Shown one piece after another: positions 4,682 to 23,385 of a stretch of 39,451 bases of DNA. The stretch lies in the IMG/VR virus record IMGVR_UViG_3300006947_000030, positions 1 to 39,451 of that record; one strand, given 5' to 3'. This DNA is from a virus. Position 1 is the first letter of the stretch. Each line of letters begins with the position of its first letter. The translations under genes and the position numbers were made by a program. The notes under the pieces were generated by a model. The model saw only the letters and a program-made list of their open reading frames with translations, was not told the DNA's origin and did not search any database.

Positions 4682-6226
4682 TTACCTAGCAGATTTCTTT
4701 TTTATATCTCCAGGTTGACCAGCTTCACTACCTTGTGCGCTAGGCTTATGAGAATAAACCGTAGTTGTAGTAGCTCCAACAGTCGTAGTATTACCGCTAT
4801 TAATTGCAGCTTGACCTGCAAAGCCTTTGGCTAAGCTTGCAACTTCTTTCGCAGCTTGATCTTCTGCTAACTGAGCACCGATCTCTGATGATTGTGCCAA
4901 ATCATATTCCACAGTATTATCGCCAGTTTCTGGATTAAGTCCGGCGTATTCATAAACGCTGTTTGGAATAGCTTTTGATACTAGGTTTGGTATGTCGTAC
5001 CAAGGTGCATCAGCATTAGGCATTGGTAGAATACTACGTAATACGTCTCTATAGAAGTCTTTAATACTGAAGTTGCTTCCTATATCAATACCCTTTTTGA
5101 AAATAGCTACTACTGAATCAATAATTCCGTCTATGAAATCATATATCCCTTGTGTCAAACTCAAAAACAAATCAGTGAAACTAAAACTATCGAGAGCCTC
5201 AGAAGACTCATCAAATCCAAATTTCTTAAGAACCCATGATACTAAGTCTTTTATTAAGTCAAGCGGTACAGTAACCAATGATGTAACAAATCCGTTGAGT
5301 GCGCCTTTAAGACCAAGGAATAAACCTTCGATAACTCCTGAACCTTCATTAAATCCGTCTATTGCTCCCATGATAGTATCCCATGCAACCATGATAATAC
5401 CGAGAGGAGCTAATACTTTTCCTGCAATACCAGCAATCTTTCCAATAAGACTTCCAAATTTACCAACGTGTGTGCCAATTGTCGTAAAGAAGTTGCGAAC
5501 CAGCCTGATAGGCTTCATTACTATTTCAGTAATTATTATTCTTATACGAGTGAAAATACTTCCTATTCTTGTTCCTACACCTTTCCACGATTCAAATATG
5601 CCGTCAGATATAATTTTATAGAAGTTTGCTATTCTTGCTCCAATCTTTGCTAAAGGACCTTCAGCAGATGGAGTTAACTTCATCTTTAGATCATCAAAAA
5701 ATGCAGCAAGTGCTACACCAATGTTAGTAACCTTAAGAGCCATCCTAGATTTTAAATTAGCAATAGAGGTTTTCCAACCATCTAACACTGCAGCAAGACT
5801 CTTTCGAAATTCAGCTGTAGTGAATAACTTAAAGTATGCCTTTATAGTCTTACCCCAAGCTAGCAACGCACCTGCAGCTGCTCCAATACCAAGTGCTGCT
5901 GCTCCAAGCGCTACGCCTACCGCACCACCACCACCGTCGCCAGTAAATTGTGCATGCTCTGGAGCTTCAGTGCTTGGATTTTTTAATGCATTAAGTAGTT
6001 CACGATCTTTCTCAAGCTGAGCAAGAGCATTACCTTTCATGAACTCTAGCAATGCATTAATTCCAAATGCAATTTGCGATTGAATATTAAACGCATCAAG
6101 ACCAGTACTACGAATCTCTTCAAGCGAAAAGAATCCATCTTCTGTGTTTTGCTCTATCGCTTTCGTAGATTTATTCTGTTCTTGCATCTGATCTGTAAGA
6201 TCAGCTAGCGTAAGTGTTAATGCCAT
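4682..6226 (-). CDS. Tape-measure / tail-length protein
   Basis: A 514-residue protein with the hallmarks of a tape measure: a helical, Gln- and Glu-rich N-terminus, a Gly/Ala-rich hydrophobic segment at about 98-124, and further hydrophobic helices around 265-290 and 300-330, separated by amphipathic helices. It is the last gene of the minus-strand tail operon and follows the gp26-like chaperone gene and its frameshift extension by 34 bases, the position tape measures occupy in most tailed phages. In T4 the equivalent is gp29 (590 residues, also a hub subunit). I rely on context and composition, not on a clear residue match. The start at 6226 has AAGGTGA upstream. Confidence 0.7.
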   Translation of the reverse strand: MALTLTLADLTDQMQEQNKSTKAIEQNTEDGFFSLEEIRSTGLDAFNIQSQIAFGINALLEFMKGNALAQLEKDRELLNALKNPSTEAPEHAQFTGDGGGGAVGVALGAAALGIGAAAGALLAWGKTIKAYFKLFTTAEFRKSLAAVLDGWKTSIANLKSRMALKVTNIGVALAAFFDDLKMKLTPSAEGPLAKIGARIANFYKIISDGIFESWKGVGTRIGSIFTRIRIIITEIVMKPIRLVRNFFTTIGTHVGKFGSLIGKIAGIAGKVLAPLGIIMVAWDTIMGAIDGFNEGSGVIEGLFLGLKGALNGFVTSLVTVPLDLIKDLVSWVLKKFGFDESSEALDSFSFTDLFLSLTQGIYDFIDGIIDSVVAIFKKGIDIGSNFSIKDFYRDVLRSILPMPNADAPWYDIPNLVSKAIPNSVYEYAGLNPETGDNTVEYDLAQSSEIGAQLAEDQAAKEVASLAKGFAGQAAINSGNTTTVGATTTTVYSHKPSAQGSEAGQPGDIKKKSAR

Positions 6227-6260: not shown

Positions 6261-7147
6261 CTATTTTCTATTCTGCTGCTTTTGACGGTCAGCTTCTTCT
6301 TTCAAATATTCTATCAACATAGTAACATACACTTCTCTTTCCCAAGGCACCATATTATCCAATTCACTAAGACTATAATTATGGTGCTGCATCATATTAA
6401 AGTTCACTTGAAAATGATTAACAAGAGAATCGTGGGAGAGGGCTATGAGAAAAAATTCTGTGCGCCCGTCAATACTACATGATTATCTGCTTCACAGCTG
6501 CTACACTTATAATCTAAAGCAATAGTTGCTGCTGGCATATTTTCTAAATGATCTCGTATCATAGTAAACTGTGCAGATGTGAGTGAGTCAATAAAAGAAG
6601 TAACCTCTTCCTTAGATTGTTCTTTCACATTCCAAACTTCTTCATTAGAATAGATTGAAGCAATGCTTGCCTTAACCATACCCATCATTTTATCTATATC
6701 TGAACCGTTACCTAGATCAGCAATATCGTTGACGTCAGGGTAACACATTGTAAGACCTATACCATCGGCAAGCTCAATGTTCATGCCACGATCTGGATCT
6801 TTCTGTTCAACAGTAACTGCATCAAGATTAAATGTTACTTCATTTTTAAAATCACATGACGAGCAGGCTTGTTTTACCTTTGCAGATTCGCCTACTGACT
6901 TAGCTCGTATCTTAATGAAAAGATATTCTAAATCGTACATCGTCAGTTTATTAGGATCTACCTTGCCATACGTACAAGTTTCTATAAGATCTTTCATAGC
7001 ACCGATAATAGCTTGCTCATCCTTTGACTCAGCCGCCATCATAAGTAATTTTTCTTCTTTGACCAAATACGGTCTATAGTCAACAGTAACCTTTGTTGAA
7101 GGAACTGTCATTGTGTATTTTGGTGCATTTAGCTTTGGTAAAGCCAT
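6261..7147 (-). CDS. Frameshift fusion: gp26-like protein extended by 62 residues (tail assembly chaperone GT form)
   Basis: If ribosomes slip back one base on T TTT TTC (6455-6449), the gp26-like frame continues for 62 codons to a TAG at 6263-6261, giving a 295-residue fusion. The extension has no start codon with a ribosome site, yet reads like a real protein: after a hydrophobic linker it has L-S-E-L-D-N-M-V-P-W-E-R-E, then V-T-M-L-I-E-Y-L-K-E-E, a pattern typical of the C-terminal part of tail assembly chaperones. The short product alone ends at 6443. Lambda G/GT uses the same arrangement ahead of its tape measure. Confidence 0.75.
6443..7147 (-). CDS. gp26/gp51-family baseplate hub assembly protein (short, unshifted form)
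   Basis: The 234-residue protein fits the T4 baseplate protein family (PF12322, T4 gp26/gp51): N-terminal P-K-L-N-A-P-K, then V-D-Y-R-P-Y-L-V-K-E-E-K-L-L, characteristic of marine T4-like members. Two C-S-S-C pairs (95/98 and 215/218) could form a zinc ribbon. In T4 these proteins catalyse hub assembly. The stop codon follows a TTTTTTC slippery run by one codon, and the downstream -1 frame is open, so this is also the likely zero-frame chaperone (lambda G-like). A good ribosome site (AGGAGTGA) precedes the ATG at 7147. Confidence 0.8.
   Translation of the reverse strand: MALPKLNAPKYTMTVPSTKVTVDYRPYLVKEEKLLMMAAESKDEQAIIGAMKDLIETCTYGKVDPNKLTMYDLEYLFIKIRAKSVGESAKVKQACSSCDFKNEVTFNLDAVTVEQKDPDRGMNIELADGIGLTMCYPDVNDIADLGNGSDIDKMMGMVKASIASIYSNEEVWNVKEQSKEEVTSFIDSLTSAQFTMIRDHLENMPAATIALDYKCSSCEADNHVVLTGAQNFFS
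6449..6455 (-). promoter_or_regulatory. Programmed -1 ribosomal frameshift site (slippery heptamer T TTT TTC)
   Basis: In the zero frame the codons read AAT TTT TTC TCA TAG, so the heptamer T TTT TTC (6455 down to 6449) has the canonical X XXY YYZ form. Slippage to the -1 frame bypasses the TAG at 6445-6443 and enters the 62-codon extension. Both Phe tRNAs keep their first two pairs after the shift. Confidence 0.8.
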
Positions 7148-7176: not shown

Positions 7177-7887
7177 CTACTGTAATATATTTCTTAATTG
7201 GTTAATTGAATTAGATACGATGTCACCACCGCGACCTGCTAGATCTGAAAAGCCATCAGCTGTGCTTACTTCTTCCCAATCTTCATATGCCATAGTAATA
7301 CTCACCTTGAGCGTAGTATTTTCTGAGGCGTTAGAAAGCTCCATTGAACCTAAGGTTGTAGGGAAAGCTTTCTTTAATCGAATAGTTTTAACTGGAATAT
7401 AGTCTGTGTTACCCATCACTTGAATAAGCATATCAGTAGCTATATCATCAACGAATGCAACACCTTTACTTTCACTGCTTGGATCTATAATAGCTTGTTG
7501 CCACGAGTTAAAATAGTTCCATATGTACATGTCGTTAGTTAAGTGGAATGTTAGACTTACATCTTCATTCATATACGCATAAGGCTTCTTCACGGCCTTG
7601 AGCGTAGTATAATGTTCTTGTGTTGCGATCTGTCGACCTGGAATACTCACTGATTCACATAGCAAATACATATCACGTGGATCTTCAACAAAGCTTGCCA
7701 AAGATAAACTACCGCCACTGATGAGAGTTCTTGCTGCGTTCCCAACAATACCTTCTACATCTGTATTGAATATAGAAGGTTTTTTACCAGGGTGTGATAT
7801 GTATAGCGCAAAGCGATTAGCTTTTGCTAAACCTCCTCTACGACCGATAGTAGACTTAAGTGCGTCTATGCCTGCAGGTAATGCCAT
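7177..7887 (-). CDS. gp19/gp54-family tail-tube protein (probable baseplate tube initiator)
   Basis: This 236-residue protein has the T4 gp19-family pattern: N-terminal A-G-I-D-A-L-K-S-T-I, a beta-rich core with S-I-P-G-R-Q-I-A-T near 75-83, a F-H-L-T-N-D-M-Y-I-W-x-Y-F segment, and the final beta strands ending K-V-S-I-T-M-A-Y-E-D-W. T4 has two such proteins, the major tube gp19 (163 residues) and the initiator gp54 (320). Its place among baseplate genes, next to gp4 and opposite gp48, favours gp54. I chose the ATG at 7887, which overlaps the upstream stop (TAATG) and sits behind AGAGGATG; an upstream start at 7914 would add nine residues. Confidence 0.7.
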   Translation of the reverse strand: MALPAGIDALKSTIGRRGGLAKANRFALYISHPGKKPSIFNTDVEGIVGNAARTLISGGSLSLASFVEDPRDMYLLCESVSIPGRQIATQEHYTTLKAVKKPYAYMNEDVSLTFHLTNDMYIWNYFNSWQQAIIDPSSESKGVAFVDDIATDMLIQVMGNTDYIPVKTIRLKKAFPTTLGSMELSNASENTTLKVSITMAYEDWEEVSTADGFSDLAGRGGDIVSNSINQLRNILQ

Positions 7888-8474
7888 TAGATCATCCTCT
7901 TCGATGCGCCCCAAACGTGGGTTTTGTTTTTACCTTGGAACTGTTCTGTCGGAAGGAATATAGCGATATCCCATTCTGGTGCTTCAACTCTTGCAACAGT
8001 ACCTTGAATGTTTGCAGTAAGATAACGCTTAAAGCATGGTTGAAATTCACGGTATTTAGCTACCGATTTTAATAAACTATAATTCAACCTTAGCTTTGTA
8101 CCATCATCGAACCTAGAGTTGTTAGCGGTTTCCATTAGTTTATCAAGGAACTTTGCGCGTAACATGGGTGATAGGTAATGTAGGTTAAGACCGTAAAAAC
8201 CATCTTTAGTTGGCTCAACCATAATGGTTAAGGGAAACGCATCCCAATATGGTAAGGTTTTTCTAAACTTAGCATCGTAGAAAAACATGTACATGTCACC
8301 AGCTTCTGGGTTTTTAGTCTTCTTTAAAGCTTCGTCCTTTAATAGAGACTGACGATTAACACCAGATAATTCCGTAGTTTTTTTACGGAACCAAGCTCTG
8401 GCTTCTTTAGATCTTGCCTGCAAACCTTTGCGGTAAGCCTCGATCTCTAATTTGTGAAATAATGAATTTTCCAT
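7887..8474 (-). CDS. Possible DNA end protector gp2-like protein
   Basis: The 195-residue protein is basic with a helical N-terminus, and a central D-M-Y-M-F-F-Y-D-A-K-F-R motif followed by T-L-P-Y-W-D-x-F-P-L and D-G-F-Y-G-L-N-L-H-Y-L-S-P. I associate that block with T4-like gp2, which coats DNA ends in the head, and T4 places gp2 directly next to gp4. Recognition is from memory and the protein is shorter than T4 gp2 (274), so the name is tentative. The ATG lies exactly five bases after a minus-strand TATAAATA, with no clear ribosome site, so a leaderless transcript is likely. Confidence 0.5.
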   Translation of the reverse strand: MENSLFHKLEIEAYRKGLQARSKEARAWFRKKTTELSGVNRQSLLKDEALKKTKNPEAGDMYMFFYDAKFRKTLPYWDAFPLTIMVEPTKDGFYGLNLHYLSPMLRAKFLDKLMETANNSRFDDGTKLRLNYSLLKSVAKYREFQPCFKRYLTANIQGTVARVEAPEWDIAIFLPTEQFQGKNKTHVWGASKRMI

Positions 8475-18153: not shown

Positions 18154-21100
18154 ATGGCCATTAAGTTTAACGTAGATCCATACTACGATGACTTTCTTAA
18201 GGATGGGGCTGATAGCCTCTCCCCTCAGGAAAAATATCATAAGGTACTCTTCCGTCCTGGAATTGCTGTGCAAGCACGAGAGCTTACTCAGCTTCAGTCG
18301 ATTCTTCAAAACCAGGTTACTCAATTCGGTAACCACATGTTTAAAGAAGGTTCGCTTGTAATTCCTGGCGGTAACTCTTATAACAACTACGCCGACTATG
18401 TTAAGCTGTCTGCTACTAACGCTGCTACTGTGGGTGATACCCTTAACGGTAAAATGGTTGCGAACGCAGCAGGCCTGCGTGCTAAAATCATTAAAGCTGT
18501 TGCTGCCACCGGATCTGATCCCGATACATTTTATGTGGTTTATCAGAATTCTAACGGCGCAACTAATGCTAATAAGGTATTTAGTTCATCTGATTCTTTA
18601 ACTGAAAAAGTGTGGAATGCCAGTAGTTCTTCTTACGACAATGGTACACTTACAGCAACAGTTGCATCATCTGCAGCAACGGGCGAAGGTGCGCTGATTC
18701 AAGTTGAAGAAGGTGTATACTTCTTACGCGGACATTTTGTCATTGTTAAAGCTGACACTCTTATACTTTCAAAGTACACTAATAATATTTCCCTTGATGT
18801 TGGTCTAGAAATTACTGAGGCTGTTACTACTGCAGCTGAAGATACTACTTTAAACGACAACGCGACTGGTTCTCCTAACTATGCAGCTCCTGGAGCACAT
18901 CGTTATTCAATCAAGACTGCGCTTAAGACACAAGCGAACTATGCCTCTACAATTGAAAACTTCTTATTATTACTACGAGTTGTAAATGGCAAGGTACAAA
19001 AACAAGTACGTGGCTCTGATTATTCTGTGATCGAAGACGTATTAGCTCGCCGTACATACGATGAGTCTGGTGACTACACTGTTCGACCTTTCCGTGCAAC
19101 GATGAAGGAAGATACTGCAGTCAATTCTCCAGGTGATGCTACTAAATTGATCGCAGCGATCGAGCCTTCTAAAGCATACGTTCGTGGTTATGAGATTCAA
19201 ACATTATCTACTACTAACCTATCAGTTAATAAAGCTCGTGAAGCGGCATTGTTTGAAGGTGCTTCTGTATCCTCACTTATTGGCAACTACATTAACCTAT
19301 TAGCTTCCACAGTTACTGGTCTACCCGATATAACTACCTTTGGTCAGATTGAATTAAGAAGTGCAACAGGCGGCGGTGGTTCTATCATCGGATACGCACG
19401 TGCTCGTAGCATTGAAAAAGATGGTACTAACTATAAGTTATATTTGTTTGACGTCTTAATGAATGCTAGCCAAACATTCTCTTCTGTTAGATCTGTTAAG
19501 GTTGGAACTACATTTGCTGGTAACTTAGTTCTAGTGAATAGTAAAGCAGTTATAAACGAACCTATCAATAATACTGCAGTGTTTGCTTTACCGTTCGATC
19601 GTGTTAAAACATGCGATGATGGTACTGGTGATTTTAACTACGTATATTTCTCTAATAAAAGGTTTGGAGCTGATACAGTTTCTGGTGGTGAAGCAACGTT
19701 TACTACGGCAGGTTCCACAGAGTTGTTCGAACCGTTTGATAATGATAACTGGATCTTAGCTGTTACGTCTGGATCAAGTGCGGGTACTATTGTCGCAGCA
19801 TCATCTGGTGATGTTAGCATCGCAGGTAACTCTCAATCAGTAGACATCTCAGGGCTTACTTCATATAACGGTGACCAAGTAACATTGATTGCTGGTATTA
19901 AGAAAACTCTCGATCACGATTCTAAATCATTGACAACCTCTGGTTCTCAGAACGTTCATCAAGTAGCATTCACCAATCAGTCTACAATCGAAGCTGGAGA
20001 TTTAGCGTTAGGTAAAGCTGATGGTTATCGTTTGCTTGCGGTGTATATGGCTCCAAACTTTTCAACAGTAGCGACAGCGTCGCACCCTGATGTTAAGGAA
20101 TACTACGACTTTGACAATGGTCAAACAGATAACTTCTATGGTATATCTAAGGTTACTATCAAGCCTGGTACAAACTTTGTTCCTACTGGAAGATTACTAG
20201 TTAAGTATGAGTTTTTCACTCATGACGGAACAGGCGATTTCTTCTCAGTAGATTCATATTCAGGTCTTACAGACGACGACGGTGCTACAGTAACATACGA
20301 AGATATTCCTTCATATACTGTTAAGTCAACTGGTAAAGTGATTGAGCTCCGATCAGCTATCGATTTCCGTCCTCGTGTATCAGACGCTGGTGGGAACTTT
20401 ACTGGAACTGGTGCAATTGTTAAGCTTTGTCCAGAACCTGCTACTACATTTACTACTGATATTCAATACTACTTAAATCGTCGCGACAAGGTATTTTTAG
20501 ATAAGAACGGTACTTTCGGAGTTATTGAAGGTGTTTCTTCTCTTAATCCTGAATTACCAGATGATCCAAAAGATGCAATGGTATTATACCAATTGTTAGT
20601 GCCTGCTTATACTCTTAAGCCGTCTGATGTTGAGATTACTGTTCTTGATAACAAGCGTTATACAATGCGAGACATTGGTAAGATCGATCGTCGTGTCAAT
20701 ACCTTAGAGTATTACACTGCATTGACATTCTTAGAAAAAGAAGCGTCTGATCGTCAAGTTGTTGATTCAACAGGTGCACTACAACGGTTTAAGAACGGCT
20801 TTGTTGTTGATTCGTTTAAGTCATACAATGTTGCTGATGTTATTTCTCCTGAGTTTAGGGCAGCTATTGATCCTGATCGAGGTGTCTTACGCCCACAGTT
20901 CTCACAAGAATCAACACGTCTTCGTTGGGATTCAAGTGCTTCAACTGGAGTAGTTAAAACTGGCGATCTAGTAACATTACCATATAGTTCTGTTTCTTTA
21001 GTGAATCAGCCACAAGCTTCTTCTGTTATTAACGTTAACCCATATGACGTATTCACATGGTCTGGATCTCTTGACTTATCACCTTCATCAGATGAATGGC

Positions 21101-23385
21101 GTGATGTTAGTCGTCGTCCTGCAGTAACCATTGATAACTCAGGTGTTACGAATGCAATGTTAGATCAGATAAATGAATCTACAGCGTTTGGTACAGTATG
21201 GAATAACTGGCAAACACAATGGACTGGAACGCAAACACAGAATGGTAACTGGATAGCAGCTGGAGGAAGACGCCGTGAGAGAACTCTTACTACTGATACC
21301 TTAGCTACTCAAAATCGCACTGGTACTAATACTGCGCTGGCTTGGTCTACTCAGGTAGATTCTCAAGGTGATCGTGTAGTGTCAATCGATATTATACCGT
21401 TTATTCGCTCTCGTCAGATTTCATTCCGTGCTGTTCGTATGAAGCCAAATACTAGAGTATATGCATTCTTTGATGGTGTTGATGTATCATCATTCGTACG
21501 TGAAGAATCTTCTTATACCTTATGGTCTAATAACGATTCCTCAGTTGTTACAGGACAGAATGCGATTACCGCTCATCCAAGTACAGCAGGTCAATTGATT
21601 ACAGATGCATCTGGTTATATAACTGGTTCGTTCTTTATACCTAACAATAGTGCTACAACGTTTAGTACTGGTTCTAGGGTATTCCGACTAACTGATTCAA
21701 CCACAAATGCTACGACTAATACTACAGAAGCTGAAGCTTCGTATAACGCCGTTGGATTGATTGATAATATTGAAGAAGTCTTTTTGTCAACGCGTACTCC
21801 TCGAGTTGAGCGAAGTGCTGTAGGTGATAATAGAACTATTATTACTAATACTCGAACTGAGACTCAAACGGGTTGGGCAGATCCATTAGCACAGTCATTC
21901 TTAATTGATGAAACTGGTGGAGCATATATCACAAAGGTTGATATGTTCTTTGCTACTAAAGATGATAACATTCCTGTGACGTTACAGATTCGTGAAATGG
22001 TAAATGGTTTTCCATCTCCACGAATTGCGCCGTTCGGTGAAGTTGTATTGAATCCTGCAAGCGTTAACATATCAGCAACTGCTGCAACCGCCACAACCTT
22101 TACATTTGAATCTCCTATATTCTTACAAGAGAACGTTGAGTACTGTGTTGTACTACTTGCCAATACTAATAAGTATACTGTATGGCATGCTGTAATGGGC
22201 CAAGAAGATTTAGCTGGTGTTAAGATTAATAAGCAACCATATGCTGGTGTAATGTTTAAGTCTCAGAACGCCGCTACATGGACAGCTGATCAGAACGCTG
22301 ATCTTAAGTTCAATATTCATCGCGCTGAGTTTACTATTGGTGCAACAGCTAATTTAGTTCTTAAGAATGATGCTCCTGAAAAAGCTAGCTTACAATATGA
22401 TCCATTTAAGTGTACTTCTGGTTCTGGTATTGTTAGAGTATCTCATGACAACCATGGATTCTTTGTACACGGAAGTGTTAATTCAAGTGTAACAATATCA
22501 GGTGTTGCAACAGCGATACACGGTATTCCAGCTTCTGAATTGAATGCGACACACGTAGTGAGTGCGGTAGAGCAAGATTCATATACAATTACGGTATCAA
22601 CAAATGCTACATCAACAGGTATTGGTGGTGCAGCTACGATAGATGCTACAGATAATAGAGCGTTCCAAGCGTTCCAAACTAATATTCAACAAGTCTTATT
22701 GACTGGAACGAATGTTACTTGGGCAGCTAAAACGACGTCTGGCCTAGGTCTTATGGAAACATCTCGTACGCCTTATGTGGTTGATAGTGCATTCTCAGCA
22801 ATCATACCTAATGAGACAATGTACTCATCTACTACACGGGTTATTGCAACTGCTGATAACAAGAATGTTTCAACATTCCTTGCTCGTGGCGCGTTTACTT
22901 CAACACGAAGTAACCTATCTCCTGCAATAGATCTTGAAAGAGCATCGGTGTTTACTATAGGTAATAGAATTGATAGACCTGTAGGATCAACCACCGCAGG
23001 CTTTAACGTTGTGGATGGCTTTGTCGCTGAAACAACAGCTGCTGTCGGATCTGCTCTTGCTAAGTATGTTACAAAAACAGTGTTACTAAATGAAGCTTCG
23101 TCCACATTGAAAATCTTTATAGATGTTGCTCGTCCAAATAATACAGAGTTTGAAGTGTATTATAAGACAGGTGCTGATGAGACAGAGGTGAATGCCGCAA
23201 GCTGGGCCTTAGCAACTCCAGATAATGTTATACCAGTTAGTGACACTGGAACATTCAGTGAAGTTGAATGGACGATCAATCCTACTATTGACTTTAAAGC
23301 GTTTGGTATTAAACTTGTTATGAAGTCTGAAAACCCAGCACTAGTACCTAACGCTGCAGCATTCAGAGCAATAGCATTAGTATAA
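18154..23385 (+). CDS. Giant virion structural protein, DUF4815-type (baseplate/fibre connector)
   Basis: At 1743 residues this is the largest protein here. The N-terminus has F-N-V-D-P-Y-Y-D-D-F, F-R-P-G-I-A-V-Q-A-R-E-L-T-Q-L-Q-S-I-L-Q-N-Q, and F-G-N-H-x-F-K-E-G-S-L-V-I-P-G-G, which I recognise as the DUF4815 pattern of marine T4-like structural proteins. The rest is beta-rich with repeated S, T and G. Further landmarks are D-F-R-P-R-V (about 735) and a P-L-A-Q-S-F-L-I-D (about 1243-1251) typical of fibre-attachment segments. It takes the place of T4 gp9/gp10. Ribosome site AAGGGAAAA precedes the ATG. Confidence 0.75.
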   Translation: MAIKFNVDPYYDDFLKDGADSLSPQEKYHKVLFRPGIAVQARELTQLQSILQNQVTQFGNHMFKEGSLVIPGGNSYNNYADYVKLSATNAATVGDTLNGKMVANAAGLRAKIIKAVAATGSDPDTFYVVYQNSNGATNANKVFSSSDSLTEKVWNASSSSYDNGTLTATVASSAATGEGALIQVEEGVYFLRGHFVIVKADTLILSKYTNNISLDVGLEITEAVTTAAEDTTLNDNATGSPNYAAPGAHRYSIKTALKTQANYASTIENFLLLLRVVNGKVQKQVRGSDYSVIEDVLARRTYDESGDYTVRPFRATMKEDTAVNSPGDATKLIAAIEPSKAYVRGYEIQTLSTTNLSVNKAREAALFEGASVSSLIGNYINLLASTVTGLPDITTFGQIELRSATGGGGSIIGYARARSIEKDGTNYKLYLFDVLMNASQTFSSVRSVKVGTTFAGNLVLVNSKAVINEPINNTAVFALPFDRVKTCDDGTGDFNYVYFSNKRFGADTVSGGEATFTTAGSTELFEPFDNDNWILAVTSGSSAGTIVAASSGDVSIAGNSQSVDISGLTSYNGDQVTLIAGIKKTLDHDSKSLTTSGSQNVHQVAFTNQSTIEAGDLALGKADGYRLLAVYMAPNFSTVATASHPDVKEYYDFDNGQTDNFYGISKVTIKPGTNFVPTGRLLVKYEFFTHDGTGDFFSVDSYSGLTDDDGATVTYEDIPSYTVKSTGKVIELRSAIDFRPRVSDAGGNFTGTGAIVKLCPEPATTFTTDIQYYLNRRDKVFLDKNGTFGVIEGVSSLNPELPDDPKDAMVLYQLLVPAYTLKPSDVEITVLDNKRYTMRDIGKIDRRVNTLEYYTALTFLEKEASDRQVVDSTGALQRFKNGFVVDSFKSYNVADVISPEFRAAIDPDRGVLRPQFSQESTRLRWDSSASTGVVKTGDLVTLPYSSVSLVNQPQASSVINVNPYDVFTWSGSLDLSPSSDEWRDVSRRPAVTIDNSGVTNAMLDQINESTAFGTVWNNWQTQWTGTQTQNGNWIAAGGRRRERTLTTDTLATQNRTGTNTALAWSTQVDSQGDRVVSIDIIPFIRSRQISFRAVRMKPNTRVYAFFDGVDVSSFVREESSYTLWSNNDSSVVTGQNAITAHPSTAGQLITDASGYITGSFFIPNNSATTFSTGSRVFRLTDSTTNATTNTTEAEASYNAVGLIDNIEEVFLSTRTPRVERSAVGDNRTIITNTRTETQTGWADPLAQSFLIDETGGAYITKVDMFFATKDDNIPVTLQIREMVNGFPSPRIAPFGEVVLNPASVNISATAATATTFTFESPIFLQENVEYCVVLLANTNKYTVWHAVMGQEDLAGVKINKQPYAGVMFKSQNAATWTADQNADLKFNIHRAEFTIGATANLVLKNDAPEKASLQYDPFKCTSGSGIVRVSHDNHGFFVHGSVNSSVTISGVATAIHGIPASELNATHVVSAVEQDSYTITVSTNATSTGIGGAATIDATDNRAFQAFQTNIQQVLLTGTNVTWAAKTTSGLGLMETSRTPYVVDSAFSAIIPNETMYSSTTRVIATADNKNVSTFLARGAFTSTRSNLSPAIDLERASVFTIGNRIDRPVGSTTAGFNVVDGFVAETTAAVGSALAKYVTKTVLLNEASSTLKIFIDVARPNNTEFEVYYKTGADETEVNAASWALATPDNVIPVSDTGTFSEVEWTINPTIDFKAFGIKLVMKSENPALVPNAAAFRAIALV

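Follow-up and report, generated by a model that had tools for sequence, protein, structure and literature searches.

The PF12322 gene of the phage studied here is best explained as a tail assembly chaperone gene of a T4-superfamily myovirus, one in which -1 ribosomal slippage would yield both a short and a long form, that is, the two products which phages of the T4 group would obtain instead from two genes. We put the probability of this reading at about 93%. The DNA considered, hereafter ‘the window’, is a stretch of 39,451 nucleotides from an uncultivated phage, making up an IMG/VR virus record (IMGVR_UViG_3300006947_000030). A first-pass annotation of that stretch had proposed a programmed -1 frameshift ahead of a tape-measure-like gene, with two proteins of different length as the outcome, and this is still the best explanation, with tests of conservation, of codon-level constraint, and of selection in agreement. 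What can be observed directly consists of the sequence itself, its conservation, the selection upon it, its homologies, and a predicted fold.

The gene, its probable slip site and its extension

The gp26-like reading frame terminates as AAT TTT TTC TCA TAG, with the 0-frame stop (TAG) at 6445-6443. Within that 3' end is the heptamer T TTT TTC (6455-6449), which closes the gene as had been claimed and does so in the register that tandem -1 slippage requires. From CTC (6449-6447) the -1 frame is then open for 62 codons, again as claimed, to a TAG at 6263-6261, and the next gene begins at 6226, i.e., 34 bases past the extension. Indeed every coordinate given in the first-pass annotation (reading frame, heptamer, -1 frame, stop, and next gene) was right. 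The features are collected in Table 1.

Table 1. Features of the chaperone locus and its surroundings (window coordinates), along with Ackermannviridae-type loci (coordinates of each locus)
Feature	Position	Strand	Basis or remark
gp26-like short form, TAC-N type, PF12322	6443..7147	-	234 aa; PF12322, phrog_150, AlphaFold2 model
Slippery heptamer T TTT TTC, in phase	6449..6455	-	sequence; kept in 157/157 non-T4-group homologues recovered (55 clusters)
-1 frame extension, gp51 homologue	6261..6449	-	62 codons plus stop; phrog_634, pN/pS, alignment with T4 gp51 C-terminus
Extension as C-terminal part of predicted 295-aa fusion	6261..6449	-	
Possible internal ATG ATG within extension, weak SD	6390..6395	-	anti-SD energy -2.3
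Upstream tail tube protein, gp19/gp54 family	7177..7914	-	phrog_45 8.5e-33; PF06841 6.2e-6, slightly under cut-off
Downstream tape-measure-like gene, 514 aa	4682..6226	-	phrog tape-measure matches 5e-4 and 6e-4, weak
Ackermannviridae-type locus, Det7	L178 1438-2402		
Ackermannviridae-type locus, GR28A	L185 1435-2363		
Ackermannviridae-type locus, K475	L186 1345-2348		

The gp26-like protein matches PF12322 (T4_baseplate) at 8.1e-59, with 199.4 bits as against a curated cut-off of 24.5 and covering model positions 2-218 of 219, and it matches as well phrog_150, ‘baseplate hub’, at 1e-61. The 39 kb record holds no PF12322 gene other than the one encoding it; a second copy, i.e., a T4-type split arrangement, was not found in that record, which may be incomplete and possibly is a fragment. 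The extension, which includes the sequence DNMVPWEREVYVTMLIEYLKEE, had been described as being in the style of chaperone C-termini, and this turns out to have been an understatement. That is, the extension is a gp51 homologue, as its main part (6437-6264), when searched alone, matches positions 61-117 of the 121 of phrog_634, the ‘baseplate hub assembly catalyst’ profile of the T4 gp51 family, at 8.6e-27. The extension had been said also to have no usable start, which is only partly so. In-frame ATGs are present, at 6395 and 6392, but the anti-SD energy there is weak (-2.3 versus -7.2 for gp26 and, for the next gene, -6.9), with a start at these positions omitting the first 18 residues of the extension. 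Internal starts of this sort have been chosen by public annotators.

Within the gp26-like protein there are two CxxC motifs (CSSC; minus strand, 6854-6865 and 6494-6505), a pair whose sequence suggests a zinc ribbon. These are replaced in many cyanophage homologues (CPDDG, NPNTG), a branch that has apparently lost the metal site.

The gene sits between that for the tail tube (phrog_45, 8.5e-33) and a presumed tape measure gene. The claimed spacing of the latter, 34 bases on, is true, while its assignment as tape measure is weak, with matches of 5e-4 and 6e-4. The product of this presumed tape measure gene, at 514 aa, compares with about 780-810 aa for the genes found in the same place in S-RIM8 and ACG-2014b. 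Elsewhere in the window, within a plus-strand structural block, is a large reading frame of 1743 aa (18154-23385).

Conservation and selection

Homologues were gathered using gp26 or gp51 proteins as queries, rather than the slippery site, giving 173 loci from IMG/VR and reference phages. These loci hold 182 PF12322 reading frames, with the 157 lying outside of the T4 group representing 55 clusters under 75% identity. Looking in homologues for the heptamer and an open -1 extension had been suggested in the first-pass annotation, and an in-phase T TTT TTY near the stop is found in 157 of the 182, which is to say in every one of the 157 non-T4-group genes recovered (TTTTTTC in 142, TTTTTTT in 15). 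In 156 of these 157 no stop interrupts the -1 frame for at least 40 codons; the remaining one is cut by the end of its contig. The extensions have a median length of 63 codons (range 55-72). In 146 of the 157 the 0-frame stop falls no more than one codon beyond the heptamer. The reading frames without the heptamer are the gp26 and gp51 genes of the T4 group, plus one spurious short fragment. An identical arrangement is found in contig L001, whose gp26 is 99% identical to that of the window, and the same site with extension is seen across cultured lineages: cyanophages, Vibrio VH7D/V07, Aeromonas Ah1, Stenotrophomonas Ps15, Pseudomonas pf16 and Milchi, Acidovorax ACP17, Sinorhizobium phiM12, Cronobacter S13, and Citrobacter Ci1. 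Rhizobium RL38J1 displays this arrangement as well, there with T TTT TTG.

Constraint can be seen also at the level of individual codons. Across the 55 clusters the codon preceding Phe-Phe is AGT, TCT, AAT, GAT, GCT, CAT or ACT, the base before Phe-Phe thereby always being T across six different amino acids (S, N, D, A, H, T). Based on the family's codon usage, the naive probability of that invariant T is 10^-13.8, and another factor of 10^-11.3 attaches to the invariable use of TTT for the first Phe, values which assume independence and so serve as indications. The gp26 genes of the T4 group mostly keep Phe-Phe, or a close variant, but as TTC TTT lacking the preceding T. Together these observations argue that the T run is kept for its own sake rather than for the amino acids it encodes.

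The first-pass annotation had suggested a dN/dS test on the extension, and a test of this type was run on 44 non-overlapping pairs of relatives. Substitutions at positions 1, 2 and 3 of -1 frame codons number 594, 300 and 1083, with pN/pS for the extension equal to 0.23 in the -1 frame versus 1.01 (0 frame) and 2.15 (+1 frame). Purifying selection acts strongly on the extension, and does so in the -1 frame only.

Relatives also tend to carry possible stimulators of frameshifting. A GAGG-type sequence often lies about 14 nt upstream of the heptamer, upstream anti-SD energies average -6.4 over all clusters versus -5.3 for synonymous shuffles, and the downstream fold is more stable than that of shuffles (mean z of -1.6 over 60 nt). 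In the window the upstream SD-like stimulator is weak (-2.5 versus the cluster mean of -6.4) and a downstream stem-loop does no better than shuffles, with z of about 0 to 0.6. Slip efficiency in this phage consequently may be low.

Counterparts in phage T4

Genes 26 and 51 of phage T4 are separate and divergently oriented. T4 gp51 (249 aa) matches PF12322 over its residues 1-201 (3.9e-52), its phrog_150 match runs through the C-terminus, and a phrog_634 match covers the C-terminus. Its C-terminal NYSLNSISKMIPAER aligns with NYSLSELDNMVPWER of the window, T4-type gp51 C-termini being alignable to the extension. To judge by these sequence comparisons, T4 gp51 is a PF12322 domain plus extension, fused in frame, and T4 gp26 is the short form, without slippery run. 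T4 very probably carries, as two genes, the short/long pair that the window phage would make by frameshifting. Common to both systems, that is, are the PF12322 domain, the C-terminal extension, and short as well as long forms; they differ in that the T4 group employs two genes with no slippery run whereas the window has one gene with T TTT TTC.

Split genes occur also in Aeromonas 31, Krischvirus, Bragavirus, and RB43, and frameshift-type genes are found among Straboviridae (Cronobacter S13, Citrobacter Ci1, Aeromonas Ah1, and Vibrio VH7D/V07). In an unrooted tree with long branches, the split genes stand apart from the frameshift and Ackermannviridae genes (99/98 support), which is as a single duplication would predict. 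Frameshifting may be the ancestral state, though with a tree of this kind that direction of change is inferred. RB43 gp26 is placed oddly in this tree, beside gp51. In RB43 itself the gp51 and gp26 paralogues overlap in tandem on one strand (L174, 2501-3244 and 3237-3794) whereas in T4 they are divergent, and the RB43 order could be closer to that of the original duplication.

Leiman et al. 2010 (PMC3004832) count both gp26 and gp51 among the hub assembly chaperones, and do not place gp51 in the virion. A sequence search of the PDB returned neither gp26 nor gp51, with gp27 present in T4 baseplate entries, which fits with absence from the particle though is not proof of it.

Predicted fold

An AlphaFold2 model of the window's gp26 (pLDDT 94.7, pTM 0.88) was aligned with 996 PDB chains. 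The best of these is 3FGX (Z 8.1; 85 of 96 residues, 3.8 A) and the second is HK97 tail assembly chaperone gp13, 2OB9 (Z 7.2; 84 of 107 residues, 4.2 A), Z values which are close to the tool's caution limit and which were obtained with a predicted model as query; the third chain reaches a Z of only 2.8. Both structures align to model residues 1-95, and both have been described as tail assembly chaperones (PMC9603447). The N-terminal fold of the window's gp26 is predicted, that is, to be closest to those of HK97 gp13 and 3FGX. Foldseek alone yielded no significant PDB match to this model, with 3FGX and 2OB9 ranked low. For a T4-type gp51 model no PDB match exceeded a Z of 3.2 and the chaperone structures were not retrieved, so that the case for a chaperone fold rests on the window's gp26 model.

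Alternative explanations

The extension might instead be made as a small gp51-like protein in its own right, whether translation begins at an internal start or resumes after the gp26 stop, with the T run then being incidental. Current annotations are in line with this, giving a separate small CDS in S-RIM8, phiM12, V07, Milchi, Ps15, Melnitz-1, and others, and restart would be possible in the 4 of 54 clusters in which the gp26 stop overlaps an extension-frame ATG (TAATG/TGATG), as also in the Ackermannviridae-type homologues GR28A and K475. The -1 frame, however, is open and conserved all the way back to the heptamer, i.e., upstream of any start, while the position of the first ATG varies among relatives and SD sequences at the window's extension starts are weak. 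A separate protein also would not call for the nucleotide-level conservation of the slippery run, nor for T4 gp51 being a true fusion, and overall we view this explanation as improbable.

Improbable to a greater degree still is that the long form arises from slippage of RNA polymerase, rather than of ribosomes, on the run of six or seven T's which is found in all. Such a run is short for polymerase slippage, and its invariant NNT TTT TTY phase is instead what fits tandem tRNA slippage, with the anti-SD pairing and downstream folding by which relatives exceed shuffles both being ribosomal stimulators. That the extension is a pseudogene, i.e., a degenerate gp51 remnant, or the product of a sequencing indel and hence an assembly error, can be given almost no weight, as the identical arrangement recurs in L001, 99% identical over gp26, and in all of the further non-T4-group homologues that were recovered, and as purifying selection in the -1 frame is strong.

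Proposed mechanism

Under ribosomal frameshifting most ribosomes would stop at the 0-frame TAG, giving rise to the 234-aa, gp26-like short form. A minority, shifting back by a single base at T TTT TTC, would continue for another 62 codons, resulting in a 295-aa long form whose tail would be the gp51 homologue. By analogy with the lambda G/GT tail assembly chaperone system (reviewed in PMC5009743), the short form may coat the tape measure protein, with the extension of the few long copies then recruiting tube subunits or starting assembly. Phages of the T4 group would obtain these same two products from paralogous genes, i.e., gp26 as the short form and gp51 as the in-frame fusion. We infer that ribosomes slip in the cell, the ratio at which they do so, and the action of the chaperone on the tape measure protein.

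Relation to known systems

The first-pass annotation had likened this locus to the lambda G/GT architecture, a likeness that is upheld by the in-phase site, the conserved -1 extension, the position between tube and (weakly assigned) tape measure genes, and the predicted fold. The lambda G/GT and HK97 gp13 types share with the window a -1 frameshift near the 3' end with short as well as long products (for the window, as predicted), and this position, the predicted N-terminal fold being similar to that of HK97 gp13 in particular (Z 7.2 to 2OB9). The slippery heptamer of lambda, however, is G GGA AAG rather than T TTT TTC. The window's protein also is larger than those of the lambda/HK97 type, possessing a second part which bears the two CxxC motifs, and sequence similarity to lambda/HK97-type chaperones was not found. 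Phage P2, which like the window phage is contractile-tailed, has a T-rich -1 site in E/E', T TTT TTG, the comparison here being by site and not by protein family; within the window's own family, RL38J1 has exactly this P2 heptamer. A Vandenendeviridae tail assembly chaperone locus (phage Adele) also combines a conserved, T-rich -1 frameshift with an extension that tends to be annotated as a gene of its own, but in a different phage family and with the site given as GTTTTT (PMC12846349).

The proposed link between PF12322 proteins and tail chaperones holds, given the in-frame fusion that is T4 gp51 and the HK97 gp13/3FGX fold, but it is not a new one. T4-like tail assembly chaperones were already identified, according to papers citing that study, by Vladimirov, Gautam & Davidson (Virology 2022, 566:9-15). 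To that work are credited T4-like phages with a short copy plus a longer fused copy in place of frameshifting (as cited by PRFect, PMC10885494) and poly-T -1 signals in T4-like TAC-N genes (as cited by PMC12846349). As conveyed by these sources, the chaperone identity and the split arrangement are prior art, and probably the poly-T frameshift is as well. Added here, besides the phage itself, are how widely the site is conserved and how strongly so down to single codons, as well as the test of selection on the extension. A further addition is an annotation gap that persists: each of the 14 frameshift-type reference records examined either gives the extension as a separate small gene or lacks it, and a joined gp26-extension gene is found in 0 of these 14. 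The window's gene, though well conserved, accordingly belongs to a kind of phage gene that is already known. As to what this means, gp26 and gp51 of the T4 superfamily, to which the label of hub proteins has long been given without a clear role, would become a short/long tail assembly chaperone pair, and among marine T4-like phages frameshifting would be the rule, with the T4 arrangement the exception.

It is conceivable, though we would sooner doubt it than not, that the T4 superfamily and Ackermannviridae between them have three ways of expressing one and the same short/long pair: by frameshifting in the window phage and most lineages, by duplication with in-frame fusion in the T4 group, and by TAATG restart or a non-canonical shift in the Ackermannviridae-type group. 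If so, then the long form would be dispensable as a fusion in that last group. In the Ackermannviridae-type PF12322 genes of Det7, GR28A and K475 the -1 extension is conserved (MPWH/MPWQ motif) but a canonical heptamer is lacking; there the pair may be expressed by yet another route, or through a non-canonical shift. In GR28A and K475 a TAATG overlap is present.
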